Below are positions 5,867 to 33,083 of a stretch of DNA of 64,000 nt, one piece after another; position 1 is the stretch's first letter; each line of letters begins with the position of its first letter. The stretch lies in NCBI GenBank assembly GCA_024278175.1, contig JAJRTS010000028.1:1-64000 (forward strand), written 5' to 3'. Under the pieces are notes generated by a model. It did no database searches. It had not been told where the DNA came from and was given only the letters and a program-made list of their open reading frames with translations. Source of the stretch: Gemmatimonadales bacterium. Its GTDB lineage: Bacteria > Gemmatimonadota > Glassbacteria > GWA2-58-10. The translations under genes were made by a program, and so were the position numbers.

Positions 5867-7228
5867 ATGATAATGGATAATGCCAGGATCGATGAACAGA
5901 ATATCAACTGGAAATACGTCGGCACTGTGTCTTTCATCGCGGCGATAGGAGGCCTTCTTTTCGGTTTCGACACGGGAGTGGTTTCGGGAACGATCGGCGG
6001 GCTTGTGGAAGAATTTGCGCTGAACGCCTGGCAGGAAGGTTTCGCCGTAAGCAACTTGATTATTGCCTGTATTTTAGGTTCCGTTATCACCGGTCCTCTC
6101 ACCGACCGCTATGGCCGAAAAAAAATGCTTATCGGCGCAGGTTTCCTTTTTACTGTTTCGGCGGTACTTTCCGGCCTGCCCCAGAATTACTGGCAGCTTA
6201 TCGTTGCCCGCAGCATCGGCGGTTTCGGTGTGGGAATCGCTTCGGTTCTTTCACCAATCTACATCGCCGAACTCTCACCGGCACGCGTGAGAGGCGCGCT
6301 TGTTGCGGTCAACCAGCTTGCTATCGTGGTCGGAATTCTGCTGACTTACATCAGCAACTGGATCCTGGTCGACATCGGCGTTAACTCCTGGCGGTGGATG
6401 TTTGAAGTGGAGGCTGTCCCTGCCCTGTTTTTTACACTGGCTTTGTTTTTTATTCCCGAGAGTCCCCGCTGGCTGGCAAAAAATAAACAGGATAGCCTGG
6501 CGCTGAGTGTTTTCCGGAAAATTGGCGGAGAAGATTATGCAGTCAAGGAAATGGAACTGGTGAGAGCCGCGCTCGATAAGGAAGAGGGCGGTATGCAGGA
6601 ATTGCTGAATCCCAAGGTGAGGCTTGTTTTGATTGTCGGATTTGCCCTTGCGATATTCTCGAATTTCACGGGCATCAACGTAATTATTTATTACGGGACC
6701 GAGATATTCTCGATGGCCGGATTTGTCGAAAAAGCTTCCTCTTTCAAAGCCCAGATGATTATCGGCCTGACTAACCTGATTTTCACTTTCGTGGGAATGG
6801 CGCTCATTGACAGGGCGGGAAGAAAAATTCTGCATATCGTTGCCTACGCCATTATGACTGTCTCCATGCTGGCCCTGGGGCTGATGTTCGGGATGAAGGA
6901 CGTTAACCCTGTATTGATGGTTATCCCCGTGATGACCTATGTCGCGTCTTTCTCAACCGGTGTCGGTGTCGTGATCTGGGTCTATCTCTCTGAAATGTTT
7001 CCCAATAAGATCCGCGGCGCCGCCATGGGCATTGCCACCATGCTGGTCTGGACGGCTAATTTTGCGGTCACGCAGTTCTTCCCGATTCTGCGCGATTTAA
7101 TGGGTGGTAACGTTTTCTTTATTTTTACCGCTGCCTCCTTTGTGGCGTTTATTGTTACGATGATTTTGATGAAGGAAACAAAAGGGTTGCAGCTTGAGGA
7201 GGTAGAGCGGGCTTTTGAGACAACGTGA
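5867..7228 (+). CDS. Sugar:proton symporter, MFS sugar porter family
   Basis: A 453-residue, 12-segment membrane protein with the hallmarks of the MFS sugar porter family (XylE/GalP/AraE relatives): LLFGFDTGVVSG in the first helix, DRYGRKK in the 2-3 loop, PESPRWL after helix 6, DRAGRK in the 8-9 loop and ETKGLQLEEVE at the end. It should import a monosaccharide with protons. ATG at 5867 is chosen because AAAGGATGG ends a few bases before it; a second ATG lies at 5873. It is convergent with the sulfatase operon and may supply its sugar, which is inferred from position only. Confidence 0.92.
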   Translation: MIMDNARIDEQNINWKYVGTVSFIAAIGGLLFGFDTGVVSGTIGGLVEEFALNAWQEGFAVSNLIIACILGSVITGPLTDRYGRKKMLIGAGFLFTVSAVLSGLPQNYWQLIVARSIGGFGVGIASVLSPIYIAELSPARVRGALVAVNQLAIVVGILLTYISNWILVDIGVNSWRWMFEVEAVPALFFTLALFFIPESPRWLAKNKQDSLALSVFRKIGGEDYAVKEMELVRAALDKEEGGMQELLNPKVRLVLIVGFALAIFSNFTGINVIIYYGTEIFSMAGFVEKASSFKAQMIIGLTNLIFTFVGMALIDRAGRKILHIVAYAIMTVSMLALGLMFGMKDVNPVLMVIPVMTYVASFSTGVGVVIWVYLSEMFPNKIRGAAMGIATMLVWTANFAVTQFFPILRDLMGGNVFFIFTAASFVAFIVTMILMKETKGLQLEEVERAFETT

Positions 7229-7483
7229 CCCAGACGTCAAAGTGAAAAATTCAGCGGACAGTCGCCCCGGGAAACTGGCCAAGACCGTTAATGTAGTGTT
7301 TTACAGATTATACTCCGGTTGGCCTTCACACAAAACCAGGCCCGGTTAGATCAGATGATTGTCCGGCAAACGCATCTTTCCATGACCTGCGGTTTATTCT
7401 TTTAGGATCAACCAGAGCATAAGTTTGTAAAGCTTCAGGGGAACCTCTGACAATTATCTTTTCGGCTGCACCCGGTACGCAAC

Positions 7484-7497
7484 CGCCCGGCCGGGCG
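7484..7497. terminator. GC-rich palindrome after the sulfatase gene
   Basis: CGCCCGGCCGGGCG is a perfect 14-bp palindrome, 7 bases beyond the stop of the minus-strand sulfatase. It lacks a following U-run, so it is at best a weak stop or RNA-stabilising hairpin. Confidence 0.3.
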
Positions 7498-7504
7498 AAC
7501 AGGA

Positions 7505-8821
7505 TTACAAAAGCCGGATCAGTTCGGGATTATCGCCTGTATCGACCATCCATTGCTTCAGCTTTTCCTTCAAATCCCGCTTGACCGTCGCCAGCTCCGG
7601 CGAACCGGCCAGATTAGTAAATTCCCAGGGATCGTTTTCAAGGTCGTAAAGCTCCTCGGCCGGTACCGGGTCTTCATTGTAGATATCGGCCAGCGGCTGA
7701 GGCAGCTCCCCGGCCTGTCTGAGCCTGACTATCTCCTGCCAGCTTGCGCCATTGGCGATATCTCCGACCGGCAGAAAGGGAAAATTGGTAAAGGTCCGGA
7801 TATACTTGTACCTGTGGGTGCGGGCGCACCTCATCACGAACTCGTCGGCGTGTGCGTTGCGCTCGGCGAAAACGACATCCCTGACCGAATCGGTCCTGCC
7901 TGCGAGCAAGGGCAGCAGATTCTGTCCCTGCATATCCTCCGGGACCGGCAGGTTCAACCCGGAAAGGATGGTCGGCGCCAGGTCCACGAAACTGACCAGC
8001 GCCTCCGTAGCCATTCCGGCCCTGGTCAGTCCGGGCCAGGAAACGATCAGCGGCACGAGCAGGCCCGGGTCGTAAAGGGTGGCTTTCGCCCTGGGGAACG
8101 GCAGCCCGTTGTCACCGGCGAAAATCACGATCGTACGGTCCCTGATCCCCTCGTTTTCCAGCTTTTTCAGGAACGCGCCCAGGTGGTTGTCCATCCAGGT
8201 GATATCGCTCAGGTAGCCGGCGAGGTCTTCCCGGACAGCCTCGGTATCCGGCAGATACGGCGGCACCCTGATCCCCTCGGTGCCGTAAATATTCTCATGT
8301 TTCCAGGTGCGGTGGGGTTCCACGTATCCGAGCTGGTAGAAAAACGGCTGATTCGCCCGCAGGTCGTCAAACGACTCTTCGATTTGTTTGGCTTTGCCCA
8401 GGTGCCATTTCTCCCAGACGCAGCAGCGGTATCCCAGTTGCTCCAGGGCGTCGGTAAAGATAAATTCAGCACCTCCCAGCGGGGAGTGCAACACTTCCGT
8501 GCCGGTCGTATGCGGTGTTTTTCCCGTATAGAGGGCCGAGCGGTTGGGACTGCACTGGGGAGAAGCGCAAACAGCGTTGGTAAAGCGGACTCCCTCGCCG
8601 GCAAGCGCATCCAGCATGGGAGTGCGCACAACAGGGTCACCATAGCACCCGGCGTGATCACGTCCCTGGTCATCCGAAATAGCCAGGACGATATTCGGCA
8701 GGTCAGCGGAGTTTCTGTTGCCGCAATTGAGCAGACCGCCGGCCAGGCCAAGCCCGATGGCGGAGCCCAGGGTACTGATAAAGTGTCGCCTGCTGGGATT
8801 CGGATCTGGCTCATTCATCAA
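7505..8821 (-). CDS. Cys-type formylglycine sulfatase, Tat-exported
   Basis: A 438-residue type I sulfatase. The signature C-x-P-x-R is CSPNR at residues 90-94, so Cys90 would be converted to formylglycine. The metal-binding start is SDDQGRDHAGCYG near residue 50, and FAGDNGLPF supplies later metal ligands. The N-terminus SRRHFISTLGSAIGLGLAGG is a twin-arginine export signal. It hydrolyses a sulfate ester on a sugar, probably outside the cytoplasm. Small size and sequence style resemble heparan-type or exo-sulfatases, but the substrate is not readable. It is last in the operon of ThuA protein, isomerase and oxidoreductase. No anaerobic maturase or FGE gene is in the window, so maturation must be encoded elsewhere. 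Confidence 0.9.
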   Translation of the reverse strand: MMNEPDPNPSRRHFISTLGSAIGLGLAGGLLNCGNRNSADLPNIVLAISDDQGRDHAGCYGDPVVRTPMLDALAGEGVRFTNAVCASPQCSPNRSALYTGKTPHTTGTEVLHSPLGGAEFIFTDALEQLGYRCCVWEKWHLGKAKQIEESFDDLRANQPFFYQLGYVEPHRTWKHENIYGTEGIRVPPYLPDTEAVREDLAGYLSDITWMDNHLGAFLKKLENEGIRDRTIVIFAGDNGLPFPRAKATLYDPGLLVPLIVSWPGLTRAGMATEALVSFVDLAPTILSGLNLPVPEDMQGQNLLPLLAGRTDSVRDVVFAERNAHADEFVMRCARTHRYKYIRTFTNFPFLPVGDIANGASWQEIVRLRQAGELPQPLADIYNEDPVPAEELYDLENDPWEFTNLAGSPELATVKRDLKEKLKQWMVDTGDNPELIRLL

Positions 8822-10437: not shown

Positions 10438-11279
10438 TGTTCCTCCACTCCCGCCTTTTCGATGATACCCCGCAGGTGACTCAGGCTTCGCCGCGCCTGT
10501 TCAGGCGTCCCGCATTCGACCGAGAGAACGCCGGAAAAACCTGCTTCCACCAGGATGCCTACCACCTTGGCCCAGTCGATCACACCGTCGCCGCAGGCGC
10601 AACCCACAGGGGTCCCGGTCACCTTGCCTCTCTCGTCCCCGGAGCGTTGCGGTGCGATATCCTTGGCGTGCACGTGGACCAGCAAATGCGCGGTTTCCCT
10701 GAGACCTTCGTAGGGGTCCTCGCCACCGAGCCAGGCGTTTCCCAGGTCGTAATTCACTCGCAGACAGGGCGAGTCGACCAGCGTGGCAATCCGCAGCAGG
10801 CCCTCGGTGGTGCAGGAAATACTCTGATGCGGCTCGATACCGATATAGACACCGTAGCGCCCGGCGGTGCGCAATGCCATCGTCAAGGTGTATTTCATTA
10901 TTTCGAAGCACTGTTCATCGCTCATCCAGGACGGCCTGATTCCCTCGTCGGTGTTGACCACCGGCGCACCGACAGCGGCGGCGAACCGAATCGCCCTGGT
11001 GAGATAGGAAACGGAGACCTCGGGACGCATCAGCGGGCAATGGGCACTGAGCCCGGAAGCTTTCACCCCGTAGCGGTCGAGGATCTCTTTCATCTCCAGC
11101 GGGTCTTCTTCCATGGACCATGAATGAAAGTACCCCGCCTCGCTCAACAGCTCACGCCCGGTATGCACCATCGGCTCCACGTACTTGTAACCGAGGCGCG
11201 CCGCCCGCCCGACACCGGCGGCGAACGGTTTGTCTTCGCAGCGGATGAACTCCATGTTGATGCCGGGAGAGATAATCAT
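10434..11279 (-). CDS. Sugar phosphate isomerase/epimerase (xylose-isomerase-like TIM barrel)
   Basis: A cytoplasmic TIM barrel of the AP endonuclease 2/IolE-IolI group. Metal-binding positions are visible: the Glu of GIEPHQS, the Asp of NYDLGNAW, the His pair of HVHAKD and the Glu of SVECG near the end. Such enzymes isomerise, epimerise or dehydrate keto-sugars and inositols. The start at 11279 is favoured: its ATG overlaps the TGA of the oxidoreductase gene (ATGA), and AGAGGA lies 9 bases before it. In-frame ATGs at 11288 and 11300 are alternatives. It should act on the ketosugar made by the oxidoreductase upstream. Confidence 0.85.
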   Translation of the reverse strand: MIISPGINMEFIRCEDKPFAAGVGRAARLGYKYVEPMVHTGRELLSEAGYFHSWSMEEDPLEMKEILDRYGVKASGLSAHCPLMRPEVSVSYLTRAIRFAAAVGAPVVNTDEGIRPSWMSDEQCFEIMKYTLTMALRTAGRYGVYIGIEPHQSISCTTEGLLRIATLVDSPCLRVNYDLGNAWLGGEDPYEGLRETAHLLVHVHAKDIAPQRSGDERGKVTGTPVGCACGDGVIDWAKVVGILVEAGFSGVLSVECGTPEQARRSLSHLRGIIEKAGVEEQ

Positions 11280-12493
11280 ACGTTCCATTCCTCTTGCCAT
11301 TGGACACGGCGTTTTTCTTTGTAGGCGATATTGCCGATATGGCAGGCCATCGATGAATAGTGACCTTCCACCGCATCCGCGCTGGGTTTACTGCGCGAGC
11401 GCATGCATTCAAGCCATTCGGCCAGGTGCTGCTTTGCCGAACCGTAGGGCACTTTGACGGTCATCTCCCTGGCTGGCTTGTCGTCGCCGGAGGTGAGAAA
11501 GGTATAGCTCGAACGGAAGATGGACAACCGTCCGCCGGTTCCCATAAAGACGATATCCGCCACTTCCGGGCTGGCCATATCGGTAATGGTGGCCTCGAAA
11601 GTAACATTCACTTTGGGATAGTCCAGGACAAGGTTGATGTTATCGGGTGTATCGCGGCCGTCATCGTACTGGTATATGCCGCCAAGAGCAACCGCGGAAG
11701 CGGGCTTGCTCAGCCCCAGAAACCAATGGACCACGTCCACCATGTGCACGAACAGGCCGCCGGTCATCCCGCCGCTGGAAAAATCCCAGTAAGCGAAGCG
11801 GTTGAAATAGCGTTTCGCATCCCAGGGAATTTTGGGCAACCAGGCCAGGCAGGCCTCCCAGTCAAGACCGCTCGGCTTACGCTCCAACCCGGGCGGGACA
11901 GGGAATGTGTAGCCGCCGTTACCGTTCCAGATTGTCCGCACCATGTTTACTTCTCCGATCAGACCGCTGTCGAAAAATTTGGCTTTCGCGTCCTTGAAGT
12001 GCGGGATGCTCCTCTGCTGCATGCCCACCTGGACGATCCGGCCGGTATCTCTGGCCGCACGGACGACATCGAGGCCCTGCGCCGGCAGCGAAGTCATCGG
12101 CTTTTCCACGTAGACGTCCTTGCCCGCCCGGCAGGCATCGACAGTTATCCCGGCGTGCACGTGGTCGAAAGTGCCGACGACCACTCCATCGATATCTTTC
12201 CGTTCCAGCAGCTTACGGTAATCGGGGTACTTGTCCACAGGCCCGGTGATTTTTTCGGCTTCGTTCATCCGCTCATCCCAGACATCACTGAGGGCGACCC
12301 ACTCGATCCTGCCGATGCCGTTAAGATTACGCATCAGGCTTCTCGAACGGTTGCCGCTGCCGATCACTCCCAGGCGGATCCGGTCATTGGCGCCGAGCAC
12401 GCGTTTCGAAGAAGCCGCCGTGGCTACAGTCGCGGCTGCCAGTGTGCCGGCAAGGAAGGAACGTCGTGAGATTTTTCGCTTCACGTCAGGCAT
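11276..12493 (-). CDS. Gfo/Idh/MocA oxidoreductase with Tat signal
   Basis: 405 residues. The N-terminus KRKISRRSFLAGTLAAATVATAA is a twin-arginine signal, so the enzyme is likely periplasmic, and its nucleotide would be a tightly bound NAD(P). The Rossmann start is RLGVIGSGNRSRSLM, and EKP in DVYVEKPMTS is the family's conserved substrate/cofactor motif. The C-terminal half is the usual alpha/beta sheet domain. It is the first gene of the four-gene minus-strand operon and should oxidise a sugar at one carbon before isomerase and ThuA steps. Divergent from the AraC regulator across 153 bases. Confidence 0.88.
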   Translation of the reverse strand: MPDVKRKISRRSFLAGTLAAATVATAASSKRVLGANDRIRLGVIGSGNRSRSLMRNLNGIGRIEWVALSDVWDERMNEAEKITGPVDKYPDYRKLLERKDIDGVVVGTFDHVHAGITVDACRAGKDVYVEKPMTSLPAQGLDVVRAARDTGRIVQVGMQQRSIPHFKDAKAKFFDSGLIGEVNMVRTIWNGNGGYTFPVPPGLERKPSGLDWEACLAWLPKIPWDAKRYFNRFAYWDFSSGGMTGGLFVHMVDVVHWFLGLSKPASAVALGGIYQYDDGRDTPDNINLVLDYPKVNVTFEATITDMASPEVADIVFMGTGGRLSIFRSSYTFLTSGDDKPAREMTVKVPYGSAKQHLAEWLECMRSRSKPSADAVEGHYSSMACHIGNIAYKEKRRVQWQEEWNV

Positions 12494-18554: not shown

Positions 18555-18919
18555 ATGAACTCGTCCTGTCACTGCGCTGGTTTTCCCCGGAGCACACCCC
18601 CCAGGTAGCCCTTGCCAAATGTTGTGGACACTGTTTTGGGCAACCGGCGCTTGCATTTCCCAAGGTCAAAGACCCTGAAAATAATTGCCCCTCACCATGG
18701 GAACGGATACTTTATCATCGGGACGATGGGAATCTTAGAATCCGAACCGCAGTCTGCCCCGCCGGCTGTAGTTGCGCAGCTTGACGCGAATGGCTAAACA
18801 CCTTAATCCTATTGCATTTACTTACCGGTTCGTTCGTTGTATATTGCAGCATGGAAAGATAATTCGTATTATTTTATCCCGGATTATGAATAATATACTG
18901 GGAGCATCAAAAGGGCTTG
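18555..18919. other. Leader region of the nonulosonate cluster
   Basis: About 365 bases between the HD-GYP gene and the legB remnant. Open frames here are short and without motifs. The last ~110 bases are AT-rich and probably hold the cluster promoter. AAAAGGG at 18909-18915 is the ribosome binding site of the legB start at 18920. Confidence 0.45.
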
Positions 18920-19238
18920 ATGAATCTGCAAGGGAAAAAAGTGCTTGTTACCGGGGCGGATGGCTTTATCGGCAGCCACCTTGCCGATGATATGGTGCGC
19001 CGGGGCGCTGAGGTCCGCGCGTTTGTGTTGTACAATTCCTTCAACTCCAGGGGCTGGCTGGATAGCACAGAAGCGGATGTCGTGGAGGCGATGGAAGAAG
19101 TTGTCGCCGGAGATGTCAGGGATTATCACTCGGTCAGGCAGGCGAGTGAGGGCGTGGATGTCGTGTTCCATCTGGCTGCGTTGACAGCGATCCCCCTACT
19201 CGTACCATGCTCCAGGTTCCTACGTGGATACAAATTTC
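18920..19238 (+). pseudogene. legB: legB-type nucleotide-sugar 4,6-dehydratase, 5' fragment
   Basis: The first ~106 codons of an extended SDR dehydratase: VLVTGADGFIGSHLADDMV (NAD site), AFVLYNSFNSRGWLD, GDVRDYHSVRQ and VVFHLAALTAIP. All follow LegB (Campylobacter Cj1319-type GDP-GlcNAc 4,6-dehydratase). A run of five C at 19192-19196 breaks the frame. If one C is removed, the sequence continues YSYHAPGSYVDTNF, exactly as expected of LegB, to about 19238, where similarity ends abruptly. The catalytic TSTSEVYG and YxxxK region is absent. The missing 3' end reappears at about 23475-23632. As it stands it cannot encode an active enzyme. Confidence 0.85.
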
Positions 19239-20100: not shown

Positions 20101-21579
20101 GTGAATAAAGAAATCAGACAAATCAAAAGAAAGATAGCATTGGTTTATCCACCTCATAAGGTGGAAAGTCTTATGTTTTCTCTGGCATATTTGTCCGGAT
20201 ATCTTAAGTCTTTAAGGTCTTCTTGGGACATAAACATAATCGACTGCCCGGCAAACAATTATAATTATGATGACCTGCAGTCGTTATTGACAGAATATGA
20301 ACCTGATATTGTTGGAGTTTCGATCCCTTTTTCTAATATGCTTAGCAGCGCTCTGGAATGCATGCAGATGGCAAAGACAGTTTTGCCAAATGCATGGATA
20401 ATTGCAGGCGGCACTCATGCAACCTTGTGCCCGGAAGATATCAGCTCGGCTTGTGACATTGTGGTTCGGGGTGCTGGAGAAAAAACGATGGAACAAATTA
20501 TCAGAAGCTTTCCCCAAAAAGAAACCGCTCACTCCTTGAAAAATATAGCTTTCGTTGAAGGACCTGATCTTCGAGTTAATGATACAGACCATACATTTAG
20601 ACTTGATAAGATGCCCTCACCGGATTGGAGTGGTGTCACTCCCTCAAAACATTTGGAACCAGTTATTTACGGCTCTGCAAGCAATGGCATAGGTATATTG
20701 GGAAGTAGAGGTTGCCCTTATAATTGTACTTACTGCAGCAATGGCTTACTATCTGATCGTAAGGTTATTTATCGGGATGTTGATGATCTGATTAAAGAGA
20801 TTAAGTGGCTAATCGAACAATATGGTATCAGAAGTTTTAAGTTCAGAGACGAAGTATTTAATCTGAACCCCAATAGAGTCATTGAGTTCTGCAATATAAT
20901 CAAGAAGGATAATATTAATATCGAGTGGTCTTTCCAAACAAGGGGAGATTTAGTAAAAGATAAGAAGCTTTTTGCATTGATGGTAGAGGCGGGAGCAAAA
21001 GCCGTTAGCCTTGGAATTTAATCAGGCAACGAATCGATACTAAGATTCAATAAAAACATTAGTAAAAATAAAATTTCCAATGCAGTCCAATTCCTGAAAG
21101 AAGCAGGTCTACTTGTTTATGCCGGATTCATTATTGGATTCCCTCAAGATACAATTGAAACAGTATGGGAAACGATATTATATCCTGACGAGCTGGATAT
21201 TGACTCCCCGGGTTTTCAGATTATGGTTCCCTATCCAAAAACTCAAGTAAGATATCTGGCCGAAAAAGACGGCGGCATTATCACCAAAGATTTTGACAAT
21301 TACACAACATACGGTGTTGTTTACGTGCCCCCTGGTTTAAAAGAGTACGACTTATTAGCGATTAGAAAGTTCGCTTTCCAATATTTTCATACCAGGACGA
21401 AAAAGAGAGTTAAAAACTGGATTAACAGATTTGTTACTCGACCCGACTATGAACAGATAGCAAAAAAATATTGGTCGCTTTTTGAAAACAAAGACACTCT
21501 AAACTTTGATTACCTAAGACAGCTAAAAATAAAAACACGATCTGAAAGTGATGCTAAAATAGAAAGGTTGCCGATATGA
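20101..21579 (+). pseudogene. B12-binding radical SAM protein with one in-frame stop
   Basis: One reading frame of 493 codons interrupted only by TAA at 21019-21021. Residues 1-180 form a cobalamin-binding Rossmann domain (DIVGVSIPFSNMLSS, WIIAGGTHATLCPED). Cys205, Cys209 and Cys212 in CPYNCTYC bind the 4Fe-4S cluster. The frame goes GAKAVSLGI-stop-SGNESILRF. Family members have Glu here (GIESG), so a GAA to TAA change is the simplest cause. The remaining 186 codons (YAGFIIGFPQDTIETVWETI and onward) are intact, so decay is recent, or the stop is a sequencing error or read through. Start is GTG at 20101. Such proteins do methylations or other radical steps on sugars or natural products; the target is unknown. 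Confidence 0.85.
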
Positions 21580-22435: not shown

Positions 22436-22488
22436 ATGATGAACAGACAACTATTAGCCACTTCAACAACTGACTTTTGGTGGGCGTT

Positions 22489-23466
22489 ATGAAAAAGGTA
22501 CTAGTAACAGGATGTGCGGGTTATATCGGATCAAACTTAGTTCGAAAACTCCTGTTTGAAACTTCATATTATGTGAAAGGCTTCGACTGTCTGAACTATG
22601 GAATCGAGCCGATACTTAGCTTATTGGAACATCCATCCTTTGAACTGAAAATCGGTGATATCAGAGACTCTGATATGGTTGATGAGGCTCTTGATGATGT
22701 CTGGGCTGTTATACATCTGGCGTCAGTGGTCGGCGACCCCGCTTGTGCCGCCCAACCGGAATTGGCAAAAAGCGTAAACCTTAACGCCACCAAACATCTT
22801 TATAACGAAGCTCTCAAAAAAGGAGTCGCACGCTTCATATTTGCTTCTACATGCTCCAATTATGGAAAATCCCAGAATCCTGACGAGTATATGAATGAAT
22901 CATCGCCCCTGAATCCCGTTTCCATATATGCAAAGACAAAAGTAGACGTAGAAAACTATCTCTTAGGTCAGCCTTCAACTAACAGTTGTGTGCCGACATG
23001 TCTGCGCTTTGCAACATGTTACGGGATTTCCCCAAGAAATAGATTCGACTTGACAGTGAATGAGTTCACTCGAGACATTGTACTGGATAAGGAAGTGATA
23101 ATTTTCGGCAAGCAGTTCTGGAGACCATATTGCCACGTTAACGATCTTGCTAACGCTATGATGGCTGTGCTTCAAAGCAGTAATGGCAGTACTGCATTTG
23201 AGATCTTTAATGTTGGGGATACAGATGAAAATTATACTAAACAGATGTTGGTAGACCGGATTGTGGAACAGGTAGGTAAGGGTAAAATAAAATATGTGGA
23301 TAAAAAAGAAGACCCGAGGGACTATCGAGTCAATTTCGATAAGATCAGCAAAAAACTCGGTTTCCAAATCAGCAAGAAGCTATCCGATGGGATAGAGGAG
23401 ATTCAATATTGGGTTGGTAATGGTTTTATTCCTGACCCTTATCACCAGAGATTTAAAAACACTTGA
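22489..23466 (+). CDS. NAD-dependent epimerase/dehydratase (extended SDR)
   Basis: 325 residues from ATG 22489 (the in-frame TTG at 22477 has no better ribosome site). KKVLVTGCAGYIGSNLVRKL is the NAD-binding start, HLASVVGDPA is the typical strand 4 region, and STCSNYG plus YAKTK are the catalytic Ser and Tyr-x-x-x-Lys. The dehydratase-specific Asp-Glu pair (TDEVYG) is absent, so a C4 epimerase or ketoreductase is likelier than a 4,6-dehydratase. Hence it does not obviously replace the broken legB around it. Last complete gene of the AT-richer island. Confidence 0.85.
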   Translation: MKKVLVTGCAGYIGSNLVRKLLFETSYYVKGFDCLNYGIEPILSLLEHPSFELKIGDIRDSDMVDEALDDVWAVIHLASVVGDPACAAQPELAKSVNLNATKHLYNEALKKGVARFIFASTCSNYGKSQNPDEYMNESSPLNPVSIYAKTKVDVENYLLGQPSTNSCVPTCLRFATCYGISPRNRFDLTVNEFTRDIVLDKEVIIFGKQFWRPYCHVNDLANAMMAVLQSSNGSTAFEIFNVGDTDENYTKQMLVDRIVEQVGKGKIKYVDKKEDPRDYRVNFDKISKKLGFQISKKLSDGIEEIQYWVGNGFIPDPYHQRFKNT

Positions 23467-23632
23467 TAACCGACAAGTGGCAACGAATGTCTTAGATTTA
23501 TTGATAAGCGGCTACCAATCAAATCCCTTGAGACGGAAATTAGCAGAGCGTGGGGGATTGCAGCGCACTGTTGACTGGTTTTCCCGTGATCAGAATCTGA
23601 AACTATATAAAAGCGGTGAGTACAATATCTGA
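23467..23632 (+). pseudogene. legB: legB-type dehydratase, 3' fragment
   Basis: After the epimerase stop another frame ends GGLQRTVDWFSRDQNLKLYK then SGEYNI and TGA, ahead of the LegC gene by 7 bases. LegB proteins end in just this way (a GL..T..WF helix, then LYK.D.YN), so this is the tail of the same gene whose start lies at 18920. Reliable homology begins near 23475-23500. About 170-180 codons of the middle are missing, so the island replaced, rather than merely interrupted, the catalytic centre. Confidence 0.75.
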
Positions 23633-23639
23633 CCTGCGG

Positions 23640-24794
23640 ATGAACCCGAATGATTTCACAGCGGCCCTGGGCGCTGTGCTCGGCCCGGCGGATCGGCTGA
23701 AAGCGCTGCATGAGCCGGTGCTGGGCCAACTGGAGAAAGAATACCTGCTTCAATGTATCGATAGCGGCTATGTATCATCGGTGGGCGCTTTCGTTGACCG
23801 GTTCGAGCAGGAGCTCTCTTCCCTTACCGGCTCCCCGCATGTGGTGGCGACGGTAAACGGCACCGCCGCACTGCATCTGGCGCTGCTTCTCGCCGGTGTC
23901 CGCGGCGGCGACGAGGTACTGATACCTTCGATGAGTTTTGTCGCCACCGCCAATGCCGTGGTCTATTGTGGCGCCACTCCCCATTTCTGCGATATCGATG
24001 AACAAACCCTGGGCCTGGACCACAACAAGCTGGCGGATTATCTGACCGAAATCAGCGATACGGATCAGGGCGGTTGTATCAACAAAAACACCGGCGCAAG
24101 GCTGGCGGCGGTTGTACCGATGCACACTTTCGGCTCTCCGGTGGAAATGGACGGCCTGCTGGAAGTGGCCGGCAGTTACTCGATACCGGTTGTGGAGGAT
24201 ACGGCCGAGGCGCTTGGATCGTCTTACCGGGGCAGGCACTGCGGGACACTTGGACAGCTCGGCATCCTCAGCTTCAACGGCAACAAGATCGTCACCACCG
24301 GCGGCGGCGGCGCGCTAGTGACCTCGGATGAAAAGCTGGCCAGCGAGGCGAGGCACCTGAGCACAACCGCGAAAATACCACACCGCTGGGAGATGGCGCA
24401 CGACCGGGTCGGTTTCAACTATCGCATGCCGAATATCAACGCCGCGTTAGGCCTGGCGCAACTGGAGAGGCTGGCTGGCTTTCTCGAGGCCAAAAAACGC
24501 CTGGCAGCCAGGTACGCACAGGGTTTCAAAAGCCTGGAGGGAATCAATATATTTACTCCGCCAGAGGGTTCCGACTCAAACTACTGGCTGAACGCCGCCT
24601 TGCTCGATACACCTGACTCTGTCCTGCTTGGGGAACTGGTCGAGGCGGCCGGCGACAGCGGTTACATGTGCCGGCCCGCGTGGACGCCCCTGCACCGGTT
24701 GCCGATGTACCGGGACTGCCAGTCGATGGAGCTGGACGTAACGGTGAGCATGTCGGAAAGAATTATCAATTTGCCCAGCAGTGCGAGCTTATGA
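23640..24794 (+). CDS. legC: LegC-type PLP-dependent aminotransferase
   Basis: About 385 residues from ATG 23640; an in-frame GTG at 23616 is an alternative. Neither has a clear ribosome site, suggesting coupling to the old legB stop at 23632. A DegT/DnrJ/EryC1 enzyme. LHEPVLGQLEKEYLLQCIDS then GYVSSVG at the N-terminus is characteristic of LegC, which aminates the C4 ketone of the sugar made by LegB. FNGNKIVTTGGGGALVT carries the PLP lysine. VNGTAALHLALL and VVEDTAEALGS are cofactor-pocket motifs. The stop overlaps the next start (ATGA). Confidence 0.9.
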   Translation: MNPNDFTAALGAVLGPADRLKALHEPVLGQLEKEYLLQCIDSGYVSSVGAFVDRFEQELSSLTGSPHVVATVNGTAALHLALLLAGVRGGDEVLIPSMSFVATANAVVYCGATPHFCDIDEQTLGLDHNKLADYLTEISDTDQGGCINKNTGARLAAVVPMHTFGSPVEMDGLLEVAGSYSIPVVEDTAEALGSSYRGRHCGTLGQLGILSFNGNKIVTTGGGGALVTSDEKLASEARHLSTTAKIPHRWEMAHDRVGFNYRMPNINAALGLAQLERLAGFLEAKKRLAARYAQGFKSLEGINIFTPPEGSDSNYWLNAALLDTPDSVLLGELVEAAGDSGYMCRPAWTPLHRLPMYRDCQSMELDVTVSMSERIINLPSSASL

Positions 24795-25960
24795 GCGAAA
24801 AACGCAAAATCTGTGTAGTCACCGGCTCCAGGGCGGATTACGGATTATTGTACTGGCTGATTTGGGAAATAGACAATGATCCGCAGCTCCGGTTGCAGCT
24901 TATTGCAACCGGCGCGCACCTTGCCCCGGAGTTCGACCTGACTTACCGGATAATTGAGCGGGACGGATTTGCGATTGACGAGAAAGTTGATATCCAGCTT
25001 GGCGACGACACTCCTGTCGGGATCAGCAGAAGCCTCGCCAGGGCGGTAAGCGGCATCGGCCAGGCTCTTGAAAACCTTCGCCCGGACGTACTGGTCTTGC
25101 TGGGCGACAGATACGAGATATTGGCCGCGGCCACGGCTGCTCTGGTGGCCAGGGTTCCGGTGGCGCATATCCATGGAGGCGAAAGCACGGAAGGCCTGAT
25201 CGACGAGGCCATCAGACATTCGGTCACAAAAATGTCCCATCTTCATTTCGTCACCGCAAAGGCCTATCGCGAACGAGTGATCCAGTTGGGCGAAAGCCCG
25301 GAAAGAGTATTCAATCTTGGGGCACCGGGGCTGGACAACCTCAAGCGCCTGTCCCTGCCCACCCGGAAGGCACTGGAAGAAAAACTTTCACTTGATCTCT
25401 CGCCTCCTGTTTTTCTGGTTACTTATCACCCTGTAACCCTGAGCGAGGATGATCCGGCACAGGCCATGGGACAAGTATTCTCCGCTTTGGACAAATTTCA
25501 GGAAGCAAAAATTATTTTCACGGGCGTGAATGCGGACACACGCAGCAGGCCGATCGCGGAGCTGATCAAGGCTTTCGTTGCCGATAACCGCGAGAGAAGC
25601 AGATATGTGGTCAATCTGGGTCAGAAGCTATACCTGTCGGCACTGAAACATGCGACTCTTGTACTGGGCAATTCATCGAGCGGAATTATTGAAGCTCCAT
25701 CGTTCAAAATACCGACTATCAATCTGGGGGACCGGCAGCGGGGACGCCTCAGGGCTGATTCGGTTATTGACTGCGCCGAGGATTCCGGCAGTATCGAAAA
25801 TGCTGTCCGGCAAGCGATGTCGGAAAATTTTCGTAAAAAGCTGGCAAAAACCAGATCTCCTTACGGTCAGGGAGATAGTAGCTTAAAGATAAAAAATAAG
25901 CTGAAAACCGCGGACCTGGATGGAATCCTCATGAAACGATTTCACACGGTGGCGAGCTGA
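24791..25960 (+). CDS. legG: UDP-GlcNAc 2-epimerase (hydrolysing), NeuC/LegG type
   Basis: 389 residues from ATG 24791, which overlaps the legC stop as ATGA. The longer upstream frame (to 24668) only reads over legC. ICVVTGSRADYGLLYWLI, VLLGDRYEILAAA, HIHGGESTEGLIDEAIRH and LGNSSSGIIEAPSF are the known substrate motifs of NeuC-like epimerases. The enzyme removes the nucleotide and inverts C2 of the diamino sugar, giving the 6-deoxymannosamine precursor for LegI. In operon order it follows the aminotransferase, as expected for legionaminic acid synthesis. Confidence 0.93.
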   Translation: MSEKRKICVVTGSRADYGLLYWLIWEIDNDPQLRLQLIATGAHLAPEFDLTYRIIERDGFAIDEKVDIQLGDDTPVGISRSLARAVSGIGQALENLRPDVLVLLGDRYEILAAATAALVARVPVAHIHGGESTEGLIDEAIRHSVTKMSHLHFVTAKAYRERVIQLGESPERVFNLGAPGLDNLKRLSLPTRKALEEKLSLDLSPPVFLVTYHPVTLSEDDPAQAMGQVFSALDKFQEAKIIFTGVNADTRSRPIAELIKAFVADNRERSRYVVNLGQKLYLSALKHATLVLGNSSSGIIEAPSFKIPTINLGDRQRGRLRADSVIDCAEDSGSIENAVRQAMSENFRKKLAKTRSPYGQGDSSLKIKNKLKTADLDGILMKRFHTVAS

Positions 25961-25961
25961 A

Positions 25962-26852
25962 ATGAGAGTTGCATTCATCGGGTGTGTCGAATTCAGCTTC
26001 AGGGCCCTGGAGCACATCATCGGGCATACCGGGGCTGAAGTGTGCGGTATCGTGACCCGCAGGGAGTCTAAAATTAACGCTGATTTTGTAAGCCTGGAGC
26101 CATTGGCCGCTCAGGCGGGTATTCCATGCTTTATTCCCAGTGGGAACCAGCAGGTAGAAATGGCGCAATGGATTGAGGGACTTCGTCCCGATGTAATTTT
26201 CTGTTTCGGGTGGTCCTACCTGCTCAAGCAGGAAATTCTGCGAATACCGCGGCTCGGCGCGATAGGTTACCACCCGGCGGCACTGCCTTATAATCGTGGC
26301 CGGCATCCGATAATCTGGGCGCTGGCTCTTGGACTCGAAAGAACGGCTTCCACGTTTTTCTTCATGGACGAGGGCGCTGACAGCGGCGACATCCTCAACC
26401 AGAAGTTCCTCGCTATTGAGCCGGAGGATGACGCCCGCTCGCTTTACGACAGGCTGACTGAAACAGCGCTGAAACAAGTAGAGAAATTTGTTCCCCAACT
26501 CATGGATGGAAGCTTCCAGCGCACGGTTCAACAGCACGAGTTGGCGAATTACTGGCGTAAAAGGTCGGAACGTGACGGAATCATTGACTGGCGGATGTCA
26601 GCATCGTGTATCAACAACCTGGTCCGGGCGCTCACTCGCCCATATCCGGGAGCGGAGTTTACATGGGAAGATAAACACGTCAAGATCTGGAAGAGCGAGC
26701 TGGCGGAGTTCCGGCACGCTTTTTCCAATATTGAACCCGGTAAGGTCTTAGAGGCAGCAGATGGAACCTTGACGGTAAAATGCGGTGAGGGTGCGCTGAG
26801 AATACTTGAGCACGATCTGGACCAACTTCCTGAACCGGGAGACTATCTATGA
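25962..26852 (+). CDS. Sugar N-formyltransferase (Fmt-like)
   Basis: 296 residues related to the formyl-THF transferases of tRNA and amino sugars. The catalytic His104 lies in YHPAALPYNRGRHPI and the Asp in DEGADSGDIL (about residue 140). The Asn two residues before the His in the common N-x-H motif is Gly102 here, which may be a subfamily trait. The C-terminal domain (IDWRMSASCINNLVRAL) is the OB-like part typical of sugar formyltransferases. One base separates it from legG, and its stop overlaps a deacetylase start. Together these suggest an N-formyl group on the nonulosonate or its precursor. Confidence 0.85.
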   Translation: MRVAFIGCVEFSFRALEHIIGHTGAEVCGIVTRRESKINADFVSLEPLAAQAGIPCFIPSGNQQVEMAQWIEGLRPDVIFCFGWSYLLKQEILRIPRLGAIGYHPAALPYNRGRHPIIWALALGLERTASTFFFMDEGADSGDILNQKFLAIEPEDDARSLYDRLTETALKQVEKFVPQLMDGSFQRTVQQHELANYWRKRSERDGIIDWRMSASCINNLVRALTRPYPGAEFTWEDKHVKIWKSELAEFRHAFSNIEPGKVLEAADGTLTVKCGEGALRILEHDLDQLPEPGDYL

Positions 26853-27514
26853 AAGTAGCGGTAGTGGCGGCTCACCCCGATGACGAAACGTTAGGATGCG
26901 GCGGCTCGATACTAAAGCACATTGACAATGGGGACGAAGTCCACTGGATTATCGCCACGTCCATGACACCGGAGACCGGTTATACAACCGGGCAAATCGA
27001 CGAGAGAGATAAAGAAATAACCGCTGTGGAAGAAGCTTTTGGCTTTTCAGGCACTCATCGTCTCGCCTTTCCCGCTTCGGCCCTGGACGTTGTTCCGCTG
27101 GCGAACGTTGTTGCTAAAATGAAATCGGTTTTCCAGCACCTGGAGCCGGAGTTGGTATTTACCGTGTTCGGCAACGATTCCCACTCGGACCATCGGGTGG
27201 TTTTCAACGCAGTCTGCGCGGCGTCCAAATGGTTCAGGATTGCTTCGATCAAGTCTCTGCTGGCATATGAGACCATTTCGGAAACGGAAATGGCGTTTAC
27301 CCCCGCCGCCACCTCTTTTACGCCCAATGTTTTTATCGATATCGGAAAATACCTGGACAGAAAACTGGAAATATTTAGTATATACCGATCTGAAACAGGG
27401 GAATTTCCCTTTCCGCGCAGTGATAAAGCGATCCGGTCCTTAAACGAATTCCGGGGTTCCACGGCCGGTTACAAGGCAGCCGAGGCTTTTATGCTGATCC
27501 GAGAGCGGCGATGA
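26849..27514 (+). CDS. PIG-L/LmbE-type N-deacetylase
   Basis: 221 residues. VAAHPDDETLGCGGS is the zinc motif of PIG-L deacetylases, and NDSHSDHRVV supplies the third ligand region. Members remove N-acetyl from GlcNAc derivatives. It overlaps the formyltransferase before it and the synthase after it (ATGA at both ends), so all three are co-translated. It probably frees an amine for formylation on a legionaminic-type sugar. Whether it acts before or after the NeuB-type condensation is unknown. Confidence 0.9.
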   Translation: MKVAVVAAHPDDETLGCGGSILKHIDNGDEVHWIIATSMTPETGYTTGQIDERDKEITAVEEAFGFSGTHRLAFPASALDVVPLANVVAKMKSVFQHLEPELVFTVFGNDSHSDHRVVFNAVCAASKWFRIASIKSLLAYETISETEMAFTPAATSFTPNVFIDIGKYLDRKLEIFSIYRSETGEFPFPRSDKAIRSLNEFRGSTAGYKAAEAFMLIRERR

Positions 27515-28587
27515 CTCAGAAGCGGATAATAATTATCGCCGAGGCCGGCGTAAACCATAACGGTTCACTGGAAACGGCTCTGCGGCTGGTGGAGGTTGCG
27601 GCCGGGGGCGGGGCGGACGTTGTTAAATTCCAGACATTCAATGCTTCCTCCCTGGCGTCTGCTGCTGCGAACCTGGCCGAATATCAAAAAGCCAACAAGG
27701 TTATTGCAGACAACCAACTTGAGATGTTGAAGCGCCTGGAACTGAGCCGTGAGTCCCACTACAGGATCCGGCAGTGCTGCCGCACTCACAAAATCGAGTT
27801 CATGTCAACGCCTTTCGACCTGGAAAGCGCATCGTTTCTGGCTCGCGAACTTGACCTGCCCCGGATTAAAATCTCTTCCGGGGAAATTACCAACGCACCC
27901 CTGTTGCTGGGGATCGCAGGCACGGGCAAACCGGTAATCCTTTCAACCGGGATGAGCGATCTGGCCGAGGTTGAAACAGCTCTCGGCGTTCTGGCGTTCG
28001 GTTATGCCGGGGGCACCGGCCAGCCTGATATGAATCGTTTCAGCGAGGCATATAAATCGGTTGAAGGAAAAAACGCATTACTGGAAAAGGTGATATTACT
28101 GCACTGTACTTCGATTTATCCAGCTCCTTGCGAGCAGATCAATCTGAGGGCAATCGCTACACTGCAAAAGACTTTCGGCTTGCCTGTCGGCCTGTCGGAC
28201 CACTCCCGCGGCACAGCCGTGTCGGTTGCCGCCGCGGCGCTTGGAGCCTGTGTGATCGAGAAGCATTTCACCCTGGATAACTCCATGCCGGGGCCGGACC
28301 ACAAAGCTTCGCTGGAACCGGAAGAACTGAAACAGTTGGTCGATCAGGTAAGAGGCGTGGAAGCCGCCATGGGATCGGGTACGAAAGTTGCCGGTAATGG
28401 AGAGCTGAACAACAGAACGGTAATTAGAAAAAGCCTGGTTGCGGCTTGCCGGATCGCGCGTGGGGAAAAATTTACCCCGGAAAATCTTACTGTCAAACGA
28501 CCCGGCAGCGGAATTTCTCCCCTGGAATACTGGAACTGGCTCGGTAGAAAAGCGGATAAAAACTACGAACCGGATGAATTGCTATGA
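27511..28587 (+). CDS. legI: Nonulosonic acid synthase, NeuB/LegI type
   Basis: 358 residues: an N-terminal TIM barrel (IIIAEAGVNHNGSLETAL, DVVKFQTFNAS, KISSGEITNAPLL, GLSDHSRGTA, EKHFTLDNSMPGPDH) and a C-terminal SAF antifreeze-like domain from about residue 295. It condenses phosphoenolpyruvate with the N-acetylated 6-carbon sugar to form the 9-carbon acid. Motifs do not by themselves separate sialic from legionaminic acid. The LegC, LegG and PtmE-like neighbours favour legionaminic acid. Translationally coupled on both sides. Confidence 0.93.
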   Translation: MTQKRIIIIAEAGVNHNGSLETALRLVEVAAGGGADVVKFQTFNASSLASAAANLAEYQKANKVIADNQLEMLKRLELSRESHYRIRQCCRTHKIEFMSTPFDLESASFLARELDLPRIKISSGEITNAPLLLGIAGTGKPVILSTGMSDLAEVETALGVLAFGYAGGTGQPDMNRFSEAYKSVEGKNALLEKVILLHCTSIYPAPCEQINLRAIATLQKTFGLPVGLSDHSRGTAVSVAAAALGACVIEKHFTLDNSMPGPDHKASLEPEELKQLVDQVRGVEAAMGSGTKVAGNGELNNRTVIRKSLVAACRIARGEKFTPENLTVKRPGSGISPLEYWNWLGRKADKNYEPDELL

Positions 28588-29243
28588 GTAATGCTCCCCC
28601 TGAATTGATCGTGATCGGTGCCGGAGGCCACGCCAAAGTTCTGATCGATACCCTGCGGCTGATGTCTCTCAATGTGACGGGGCTTACCGACAACGATTCC
28701 CGGCAACTTGGCTATGACCATGTTCTGGGCGTACCAGTGCTCGGTGGTGACAGCGAGCTCTCGGGCCTGGCGCCGGATATGGTACTGTTGGTCAACGGGA
28801 TCGGTGGAATCCGCGCCGATAAATTGCGAAAATCGGTTTTTGAGCATTTCAAAGCCAAGGGGTTTCGATTCATAAACGTGATTCACCCCTCGGCGGTAGT
28901 CAGCGTGGAATGCTCTCTAGGCGAGGGTGTACAGATTATGGCCGGTGCGCTCATCCAACCGGGATGCAAGGTGGGCGATGATACAATTATAAATACCGGG
29001 GCAGCGCTGGACCATGACTGCATACTGGGTTGTCATGTTCATCTCGCTCCGGGAGCGACTCTGAGTGGTTTTGTAAGTGTCGATGATTGCGCTCATATAG
29101 GTACAGGCGCAAACGTTATCCAGCAGGTTAAAATCGGTGCGGGTAGCACTGTCGCCGCCGGGGCAACCGTTATTAATGACGTCCCGGCTGGAGTTACCGT
29201 GGCCGGCGTGCCCGCCGGAGTAATCGGACAGGGAGATATTTAA
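28584..29243 (+). CDS. NeuD/PglD-like sugar acetyltransferase
   Basis: 219 residues. A small Rossmann-type N-terminal domain (LIVIGAGGHAKVLIDTL) precedes a left-handed beta-helix of hexapeptide repeats (GVQIMAGALIQPGCKVGDDT then IINTGAALDHDCILG), with the active His in DHDC. PglD-type members N-acetylate the C4 amine of UDP-4-amino sugars. Here it fits the LegH step after LegC, or O-acetylation as in NeuD. It overlaps legI by 4 bases and lies 2 bases from the guanylyltransferase. Confidence 0.88.
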   Translation: MSNAPPELIVIGAGGHAKVLIDTLRLMSLNVTGLTDNDSRQLGYDHVLGVPVLGGDSELSGLAPDMVLLVNGIGGIRADKLRKSVFEHFKAKGFRFINVIHPSAVVSVECSLGEGVQIMAGALIQPGCKVGDDTIINTGAALDHDCILGCHVHLAPGATLSGFVSVDDCAHIGTGANVIQQVKIGAGSTVAAGATVINDVPAGVTVAGVPAGVIGQGDI

Positions 29244-29245
29244 TA

Positions 29246-30298
29246 ATGACCGGGTGGAAACAAGTGTTGGTCCAACCCTCAACACCAGTTCTGGAAGTCA
29301 TGCAGGTGCTTGATTCCAGCAAGTTACAGATTGTGCTGGTTGTGGACGAGCAACGCAAACTGCTTGGCTCTGTTACCGACGGCGACATCCGGCGAGGAAT
29401 TCTGGCCGGTGTGTCGGTTGAAGCGCCGGTGGAGCGGATCATGAACAGAGCTCCGCGAGCTTGCTCAGTGAATGACAGCCGGGAAACCGTGCTTGCGTCG
29501 ATGAAAGCAACCAAATTGCATCAGATTCCGCTGGTGGACGAGGATATGAGAGTCCAGGGCCTGGAAGTGATCGACGAGTTGATCCAAAACGGTGGGCGGG
29601 ATAACTGGGTGGTGCTGATGGCAGGCGGCTACGGCTCTCGACTCAGGCCGCATACGGATAATTGCCCAAAACCGTTGCTGGAAGTTGGCCAATCACCCCT
29701 GCTGGAAATAATTATCAAGGAACTGCGGAAGTACGGTCTAAGAAAATTTTTTATCGCGCTACATTATAAAAAAGAAATGATCAGGGACTATTTTGGTGAT
29801 GGGAAAAAGTGGAACGTCCGGATCGAATACATTCAAGAGGAAGAAAAACTGGGCACTGCCGGCGCTCTGGGCCTGCTGCCGGAAAAACCCACCGCGCCGC
29901 TGCTGGTGATGAACAGCGACCTGCTGACAAACGTCAATTACTCGCTCCTGTTCGATTACCATCGGGAACACGGAGCCGCTGCCTCGATGTGTGTCCGCGA
30001 GTACGTGATGCAGGTGCCGTTCGGCGTGGCCAAACTGGATAAACACAGACTGGTCTCGATCGAGGAAAAACCGAAGCAGCATTTTTTTGTCAACGCCGGG
30101 ATTTACCTGCTGGAGCCCTCGGCGCTGGATTTGATTGCGCCAAATCAGCGGCTGGATATGAACGAACTGCTCGAAGAACTTTTGCGGCGTAAACAGCAGG
30201 TCAACGTGTTCCCTATTCGTGAGTACTGGCTCGATGTAGGCCGGGAGACTGACCTGGAAAAAGCCAACAAAGAATATCCGGAATACTTTGTCGAATAA
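29246..30298 (+). CDS. ptmE: PtmE-like sugar-1-phosphate guanylyltransferase with CBS pair
   Basis: 350 residues: two CBS motifs at about 8-60 and 67-120 (VVDEQRKLLGSVTDGDIRRG, LHQIPLVDEDMRVQG), then a nucleotidyltransferase domain with the signature LMAGGYGSRLRPHTDNCPKPLL split across residues ~123-144. The same CBS-plus-transferase layout is found in Campylobacter PtmE, which makes GDP-glucosamine for the GDP-linked legionaminic pathway. This gene is the main reason to prefer legionaminic acid over sialic acid. The companion genes PtmF, PtmA and PgmL are not in the window. Confidence 0.85.
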   Translation: MTGWKQVLVQPSTPVLEVMQVLDSSKLQIVLVVDEQRKLLGSVTDGDIRRGILAGVSVEAPVERIMNRAPRACSVNDSRETVLASMKATKLHQIPLVDEDMRVQGLEVIDELIQNGGRDNWVVLMAGGYGSRLRPHTDNCPKPLLEVGQSPLLEIIIKELRKYGLRKFFIALHYKKEMIRDYFGDGKKWNVRIEYIQEEEKLGTAGALGLLPEKPTAPLLVMNSDLLTNVNYSLLFDYHREHGAAASMCVREYVMQVPFGVAKLDKHRLVSIEEKPKQHFFVNAGIYLLEPSALDLIAPNQRLDMNELLEELLRRKQQVNVFPIREYWLDVGRETDLEKANKEYPEYFVE

Positions 30299-31330: not shown

Positions 31331-32026
31331 GTGTACAAAAACAAAAAAATCCTGGCCGTAATTCCCGCACGCGGCGGATCAAAAGGTATTCCACGAAAAA
31401 ATCTGCGGATTGTGGGCGGCAAACCGCTGATTGCCTGGACGATTGAAGCGGCGAAAGAAGCCAACTATATCGACCGCCTGGTGCTTTCATCTGAAGACGC
31501 CGAGATCATTGAGGTTGCGCGCTGCTGGGGACTGGAAGCGCCGTTTGTCAGGCCGAAAGAACTGGCCGGTGATGATATCCCTGCCTATCTGGCGGTTTTA
31601 GATGCTGTCGAAAGGCTCCCCGGCTACGATTACGTAGTGATGCTTCAGCCAGCAGTACCCCTGCGGGCACCGGAAGATATTGATGGCTGCATTGGCTTTT
31701 GCATAGATTCAAAAGCCGACTCCTGTGTCACTCTTACGGAAACCGATAAGCCGCCCTACTGGATGTATCGTCTGGGTGATAACAACAGGCTGCATCCCAT
31801 TTTAAAGCAATCGTTAAACACATCGATTCAACGGCAAGATCTTCCACCTACCTACGTACTCAATGGAGCCGTTTGTATTGCAAAAACCGAGTGGTTTATT
31901 GAGCAAAGAAAATTCAAAAGCCAATCGACTATCGGATACCTCATGCCACGGGAACGCTCTGCTGATATTGACACCGAACTCGATATGGCAATTTGCGAGT
32001 TCTTAGCCCAAAGGTCCGGCAGTTAA
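31331..32026 (+). CDS. legF: CMP-nonulosonic acid cytidylyltransferase, NeuA/LegF type
   Basis: 231 residues beginning with GTG at 31331. LAVIPARGGSKGIPRKNLR is the CTP-binding motif, LQPAVPLRAPEDID and DIDTELDMAICE are further NeuA-family blocks. It activates the finished 9-carbon acid as the CMP sugar used by transferases. 21 bases after the methyltransferase and 16 before the sulfotransferase. Confidence 0.92.
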   Translation: MYKNKKILAVIPARGGSKGIPRKNLRIVGGKPLIAWTIEAAKEANYIDRLVLSSEDAEIIEVARCWGLEAPFVRPKELAGDDIPAYLAVLDAVERLPGYDYVVMLQPAVPLRAPEDIDGCIGFCIDSKADSCVTLTETDKPPYWMYRLGDNNRLHPILKQSLNTSIQRQDLPPTYVLNGAVCIAKTEWFIEQRKFKSQSTIGYLMPRERSADIDTELDMAICEFLAQRSGS

Positions 32027-32042: not shown

Positions 32043-33083
32043 ATGTCTGAGACAAACGTGCAAATAACTAGTTTGGGAACATTTGACGGTATCGAACCGG
32101 TTCTGCTTTCAGGAGTATACCGCTCAGGGACAACATTATTATCAAGAATTCTCAATAACCATCCCAAGTATTTCATCACATACGATTCGGTTAAATATCT
32201 AAGATTTTGTCTTGATCGTTTTAACCCGATCAAGCAACCAGGAAAATACGAAGCCCTGGTCAGGGAGACCGGACTCAGACTGGGCAAACGCTGGTCGATG
32301 AAACTGGACACCCATAAAATCATTGACAGCCTTCACGGGCAAAGCGTAACACACGCACTTGTTTACCACACTATTATGTCGGACCTGAGAGACAAACAAA
32401 AACCAACTGCCACCCATTGGGGCGAAAAAACCAATCTTGTATGGAGCAGTATTCCTCATTTTCTGAGCATGTTCCCCAAGGGCAAAGTGGTTCATATCGA
32501 TCGAGATCCGCGTGATGTAACTGCATCCTATAAAAAAATGACTGTGGAATCAGGCTATTCTTATCTTGACGCTCCTTTCAACTGCTTGCATGCAATGACA
32601 AGCCTGCGGGAATACGTTGATAGTTTTGGCAGCGATAGAATACTTCTTGTCAAACTGGAAGATCTCGTAACCGATCCTGCCGCGGAAGCGCAAAAGATTT
32701 GTAGTTTCCTTGATATCGAATTCCTGAAGCAAATGACAGATGCGGAGCAATTTGTGGATAAAGCAGGCGATCGCTGGCAGAGCAACACTGCTTTTGGTGC
32801 AAGTGGGAATGGAATATCAAATGATACGCAACGCTGGCAACACAACCTCAGTGCCGCTGAAGTGGTGTTCATTGAACTGATTGCTTTTCCAGTGTTGGCG
32901 GAATACGGCTACGAGCCTTCCGGTATTATGCCTGATAAGTCACAGTGGCGAGAAATTCATAATTTTATTTCAGACCCGATAGTACATGGCAGATTCAAGC
33001 ACTGGTTGGAATCCCGCGAAGGAGTAGAGGCATACCCCAGTGACCCGGTATCGAGAGAGTTGCAAATAGTGCAGGGAAGTTAA
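32043..33083 (+). CDS. PAPS-dependent sulfotransferase
   Basis: 346 residues. The 5'-phosphosulfate loop is SGVYRSGTTLLSRILNNHP near residue 21, and the 3'-phosphate motif is IDRDPRDVTASYKKM near residue 150. This is a type 1/3-like (Sulfotransfer) fold without membrane segments, so it sulfates a cytoplasmic glycan, lipid-linked or nucleotide-linked acceptor. Placement right after the CMP-synthetase gene suggests that the surface sugar is sulfated. The acceptor itself is not known. Confidence 0.85.
   Translation: MSETNVQITSLGTFDGIEPVLLSGVYRSGTTLLSRILNNHPKYFITYDSVKYLRFCLDRFNPIKQPGKYEALVRETGLRLGKRWSMKLDTHKIIDSLHGQSVTHALVYHTIMSDLRDKQKPTATHWGEKTNLVWSSIPHFLSMFPKGKVVHIDRDPRDVTASYKKMTVESGYSYLDAPFNCLHAMTSLREYVDSFGSDRILLVKLEDLVTDPAAEAQKICSFLDIEFLKQMTDAEQFVDKAGDRWQSNTAFGASGNGISNDTQRWQHNLSAAEVVFIELIAFPVLAEYGYEPSGIMPDKSQWREIHNFISDPIVHGRFKHWLESREGVEAYPSDPVSRELQIVQGS

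Follow-up and report, generated by a model that had tools for sequence, protein, structure and literature searches.

In the biosynthesis of nonulosonic acids, the C2 nitrogen of the hexose precursor becomes N5 of the nine-carbon sugar and the C4 nitrogen becomes N7. PseJ of the pseudaminic acid pathway formylates the 4-amine directly, and characterised PIG-L enzymes remove the C2 N-acetyl group of GlcNAc residues. To our knowledge, no enzyme from a formyltransferase/PIG-L pair of the type described here has been assayed. The closest described product is 5-N-formyl-legionaminic acid, reported on HRPV-1 VP4 and on S-layer glycoproteins of the haloarchaeon Halorubrum sp. PV6, as relayed in PMC6137143. 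This 2018 paper (PMC6137143) nominated HrrPV6_1050 as a possible formyltransferase and makes no mention of a deacetylase or of HrrPV6_1052.

We analyzed a 64,000-nucleotide stretch of DNA from a Gemmatimonadales bacterium (hereafter the window) and found a bacterial counterpart of this system. A gene for a predicted sugar N-formyltransferase (FT; 25962-26852, + strand, 296 aa), with an ArnA-like transformylase domain and a C-terminal domain, is followed by a gene for a PIG-L/LmbE N-deacetylase (PIG-L; 26849-27514, + strand, 221 aa) with AAHPDDE and HSDHR motifs. The first-pass annotation had described the two as fused, which was incorrect, as they are separate, overlapping and coupled genes. 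It had rightly noted the 4-base overlap and the position between legG and legI. The overlap is formed by an ATGA start/stop at 26849-26852; legG ends at 25960 and legI starts at 27511.

The pair is embedded in a tightly packed set of legionaminic acid genes, all on the + strand. A single base separates FT from legG (24668-25960), which encodes a hydrolysing UDP-GlcNAc 2-epimerase of the NeuC family (463 bits against a curated cut-off of 235.9). On the other side, PIG-L overlaps legI (27511-28587), encoding a NeuB-family nonulosonate synthase (460 bits against 399.65), by 4 bases, and legI overlaps legH (28584-29243), encoding a NeuD/PglD/PerB-type 4-amino-sugar N-acetyltransferase (NeuD family, 226.5 bits against 160.8), by another 4 bases. 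The LegC-family aminotransferase gene legC (23616-24794; 510 bits against 420) lies upstream. Domain and family searches identified a legX/ptmE-like gene with CBS and nucleotidyltransferase domains (29246-30298) and a legF-like CMP-nonulosonate cytidylyltransferase gene of the PseF/NeuA family (31331-32026) downstream. Homologues of LegC, LegG, LegH, LegI and LegF are therefore present together in the window. A sulfotransferase gene was also observed directly 3' of the legF-like gene (32043-33083), which raises the possibility of sulfation of the sugar or glycan.

The FT protein contains the Pfam domains Formyl_trans_N (1.9e-21) and Formyl_trans_C (5.4e-21). The ArnA transformylase, which acts on UDP-Ara4N, was found to be its nearest relative by sequence (135 bits) and the top structural match (TM 0.86-0.90) of its AlphaFold2 model (pLDDT 95.5). 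The two share the fold, 28-29% identity, the two-domain layout, His104 and Asp140. However, FT has Gly in place of Asn102, lacks the fused oxidative decarboxylase domain of ArnA and is linked to PIG-L and leg genes. The active site reads G-Y-H where N-x-H is expected, with His104 and Asp140 invariant in relatives. By motif, Gly102 was found in 82 of 85 homologues; reading of the remaining three showed it there as well, in the form G-F-H or G-A-H. An entire formyltransferase family carries Gly at residue 102 instead of the catalytic Asn. Because of this replacement throughout its family, FT, which has the domains and the ArnA-like fold of the sugar N-formyltransferases and lacks the complete N-x-H...D catalytic set, is by its sequence a diverged relative rather than a canonical member of that class. 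PseJ (PDB 6ci2) resembles FT in transferring formyl in a nonulosonic acid pathway, as is predicted for FT, but its similarity is weak (48.8 bits) and it is shorter (192-217 residues). We found no relative of FT among the viral contigs searched; matches in phage records (27-34% identity) were taken as methionyl-tRNA-type formyltransferases and not as relatives.

The PIG-L protein has a clear Pfam domain match (5.2e-23), and residues H9, D11, D12, E13, D114 and H115 are invariant across 25 relatives. Both the HPDD(E) and the DH metal/catalytic motifs of the PIG-L/LmbE class are present, as in BshB, MshB, diacetylchitobiose deacetylase and TT1542. Its predicted activity is likened to the de-N-acetylation of GlcNAc residues known for this class. 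Unlike in those known enzymes, the partner gene encodes an acyl-transferring enzyme. Assignment as BshB was rejected (score of 65 against a cut-off of 182.5), and the score was also far under the mycothiol (MshB) cut-off.

Automatic annotation often labels such FTs as methionyl-tRNA formyltransferases, which raises the possibility that the two genes lie side by side by accident and serve separate purposes, such as thiol or lipid metabolism for PIG-L and methionyl-tRNA formylation for FT. We consider this extremely improbable. Another gene of the genome is fmt-like and has the canonical N-L-H motif, for which reason we also rejected FT as fmt; PIG-L scored far under the BshB cut-off; and leg loci of different phyla share the pair.

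This conservation emerged from a scan anchored on FT alone, which returned 80 loci. Among them, 22 bacterial loci (L024-L045) carry an FT with 41-56% identity to that of the window and form one clade with it (support 98). The clade spans at least nine phyla (Pseudomonadota, Thermodesulfobacteriota, Bacteroidota, Verrucomicrobiota, Elusimicrobiota, Chloroflexota, Latescibacterota, Actinomycetota and a Magasanikbacteria genome), with many members being metagenome assemblies, for which single taxonomic placements may be wrong. Cultured carriers include Salidesulfovibrio brasiliensis and Bowmanella yangjiangensis. L025, where the contig stops no more than about 80 bases from FT, did not enter the pair count. 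PIG-L was found in the locus of all 21 remaining members, and the overlap was 4 bases in 17 of these 21. The other four show a 1-base overlap, a spacing of 14 bases, an intervening methyltransferase gene, and a distance of about 3 kb, respectively. Leg genes lie beside the pair in 20 of the 21 loci. The exception, L033, has the pair detached from leg genes and a LegI homologue on another contig of the same genome. LegG adjoins FT in most related loci. Of 399 evenly sampled genomes of Pseudomonadota, five had FT, two of them at loci already in the FT-anchored scan, and LegG and PIG-L flanked FT in all five. The association of the pair with legI/neuB loci, which the first-pass annotation had suggested surveying, was thus borne out within the window FT clade. 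Since FT and PIG-L recur together across bacterial leg loci carrying a related FT, the pair is not a chance arrangement. The FT and PIG-L trees agree, with bacterial-leg, haloarchaeal and exopolysaccharide lineages in both. FT is rare in the phylum to which the window belongs: of 395 genomes, 2 have it, and the FT of the second shows just 36% identity. This points to horizontal gain.

We then compared the window with the PV6 pathway. We searched 171 genomes of PV6's family using a degenerate code of the PV6 S-layer glycopeptide. A single genome, G537, matched (1 of 171), with the full 24-residue glycopeptide in an open frame. Its leg locus reads legC-legB-legF-legG-FT-neuD, followed by PIG-L and legI on the opposite strand. 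The first six genes, which correspond to HrrPV6_1046-1051, are each one base longer than the PCR sizes given in the paper (1139, 1025, 722, 1163, 953 and 629); the seventh gene, legI, has 1059 bases in G537 and 1053 in PMC6137143. From the glycopeptide and the gene lengths, we infer that G537 is identical with PV6. The only slot skipped in the numbering of the paper, HrrPV6_1052, is occupied by PIG-L in G537.

Like the window, PV6 combines homologues of FT (35% identity to that of the window) and PIG-L (35%) in a single leg locus. This locus differs in being archaeal and in placing PIG-L together with legI on the opposite strand. Its sugar bears one formyl and one acetyl group. The reported m/z step of the PV6 glycan from 1546.65 to 1697.70 (doubly charged; PMC6137143) corresponds to a residue of 302.10 Da, compared with calculated values of 302.111 for one formyl plus one acetyl and 316.127 for the diacetyl form. 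The first-pass prediction of an N-formylated nonulosonic acid is thus supported by both the conserved pair and the PV6 sugar. Haloarchaeal leg loci form their own clades in the FT and PIG-L trees. In one haloarchaeal FT locus (L060), no PIG-L was found within its 20 kb. A second, canonical N-L-H formyltransferase gene was observed adjoining a Halorussus nonulosonate locus (L004, 15069-15791).

Taken together, the gene content suggests that the pair is, with good likelihood, an acyl-swap module that acts on the precursor amino sugar at its C2 nitrogen, the later N5 of the nonulosonic acid. LegH would acetylate the C4 nitrogen, the future N7. PIG-L would hydrolyse the C2 N-acetyl inherited from GlcNAc, and FT would formylate the freed amine, presumably with N10-formyl-tetrahydrofolate as the donor. 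A 5-formamido-7-acetamido legionaminic-type sugar would thereby enter the final glycan. The catalytic activities of FT and PIG-L, as well as position N5, are inferred. The formyl group is most likely placed on N5 because a separate LegH serves the other nitrogen. The window LegH is nearest to the 4-N-acetyltransferases PerB, PglB and VioB and keeps the DHDC His.

The characterised formyltransferases ArnA, WbkC and VioF all use 4-amino sugars, and a pseudaminate formyltransferase, PseJ, is in the PDB. This family background would fit FT formylating the LegC-made 4-amine (the future N7) and PIG-L independently freeing N5, giving a 7-N-formyl sugar with N5 free or otherwise acylated. We regard this arrangement as improbable: the window retains a 4-amino-sugar N-acetyltransferase, and roughly half of the related loci have a NeuD-type gene, with many of these loci truncated at contig ends. 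In addition, the PV6 sugar, whose locus has both FT and PIG-L, was reported as 5-N-formyl, and its mass indicates one formyl and one acetyl. The C2 specificity of PIG-L enzymes, the type of LegH and the PV6 structure together favour the 5-formamido-7-acetamido form.

The swap would most likely act on a six-carbon intermediate, around LegG and ahead of LegI. The order of the genes does not by itself fix the timing, and in Campylobacter the acetamidino derivatives of legionaminic acid are formed late. The swap could instead take place once LegI has acted, either on legionaminic acid in free or CMP-activated form or on the assembled glycan, an alternative that concerns the stage only. We consider this later timing rather unlikely, as the FT and PIG-L genes lie beside LegG and LegI, PIG-L enzymes prefer hexosaminides, and related pairs occur in exopolysaccharide loci that have no genes for nine-carbon sugars.

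Those exopolysaccharide loci, from Roseobacters, Rhizobiales and Sphingomonas, carry distant FTs (31-38% identity) without nonulosonate genes nearby. The concern that the pair might occur mostly outside nonulosonate loci, which would have spoken against the first-pass reading, does not apply to the window FT clade, but such distant pairs do exist. In Roseobacters, Paracoccus and Sphingomonas, the distant FT is often followed by PIG-L, and in some of these PIG-L lies after a sugar transferase gene and before an aminotransferase gene. In Sinorhizobium and Mesorhizobium, distant FTs are usually without a nearby PIG-L. Because pairs are also found in exopolysaccharide loci and the haloarchaeal leg clades are separate, amino sugars in general are probably subject to the acyl swap, and one branch of it would be specific to legionaminate.

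The partner of PIG-L was found to vary. The leg loci of Sinorhizobium mexicanum (L019) and Ensifer adhaerens NER9 (L020) contain PIG-L (45-46% identity) with no FT nearby, and these PIG-Ls nest inside the bacterial leg PIG-L clade. A GNAT gene (6760-7710) lies between legH and legG in L019, and a PylC-like ATP-grasp gene (10601-11587) follows legI in L020. The two loci suggest that PIG-L may free N5 and that different enzymes may re-acylate it, making the GNAT and the PylC-like ATP-grasp candidate alternative N5 acylation enzymes. In the pse cluster of a Synechococcus NIES-970 plasmid (L018, 8306-9687), an FT gene was observed to overlap PIG-L by 4 bases just upstream of neuB. This FT belongs to another formyltransferase family (PDB 1zgh) and was left out of our counts; the locus is a possible parallel case of FT/PIG-L pairing.

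The upstream part of the window operon shows signs of disruption. A legB remnant (18899-19238, + strand) encodes approximately the first 115 residues, with residues 1-101 in one frame and 101-115 in the next (frameshift near 19195); the rest is absent. From the remnant to an extended SDR gene (GalE/RmlB-like; 22477-23466, + strand) runs a low-GC block (36-44%). A B12-type radical SAM gene inside this block (20101-21579) is apparently split by a frameshift. No LegB above the TIGR04180 cut-off, and thus no intact LegB 4,6-dehydratase, was found in the genome of the window organism; a PseB-like inverting dehydratase is encoded on another contig of this genome. It is therefore conceivable that the locus is decaying and the pathway silent in this strain, a situation compatible with an acyl swap elsewhere. 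We treat decay as a genuine possibility but lean against it, since the other pathway genes keep open frames, overlaps and intact motifs, and a related SDR is found in the LegB slot of three loci.

The SDR of the window occupies the slot that LegB holds in other loci, and its relatives do so in at least three further FT/PIG-L loci, L029, L036 and L043. No LegB above the cut-off was found in the genomes of L029 and L036, the two tested. The SDR motif reads STCSNYG compared with STSE[VT]YG in LegB, with the Glu of STSE absent. If the SDR replaces LegB, the N5-formylated product could keep the C9 hydroxyl or have another stereochemistry and would be a nonulosonic acid not yet described, a proposal that we offer tentatively and think unlikely to be correct. 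Because legB is broken and an SDR holds its slot, the window strain may make a sugar that departs from legionaminic acid at positions other than N5, or its pathway may be silent.

The first-pass annotation knew of no described pathway with this pair. This stands for the deacetylase half and the pairing, as we found no paper describing a deacetylase and formyltransferase pair for legionaminic acid in open full texts, the scope of our search. It does not extend to the sugar, as N-formyl-legionaminic acid is already known from PV6. The new part thus appears to be the deacetylase half and the conserved pair, and the product sugar was already known from one haloarchaeon.

The acyl swap would supply a missing step for a sugar known since 2012, namely how formyl reaches N5 although the precursor nitrogen arrives acetylated. 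What had looked like an isolated oddity of one archaeon would become a module shared by bacteria and haloarchaea, and the gene pair would provide a signature for predicting formylated nonulosonic acids. A general rule is suggested: PIG-L would expose N5, and the new acyl group would be determined by an interchangeable partner enzyme, be it a formyltransferase, a GNAT or an ATP-grasp. Formylated nonulosonic sugars cap surface glycans and are linked to virus attachment in PV6.
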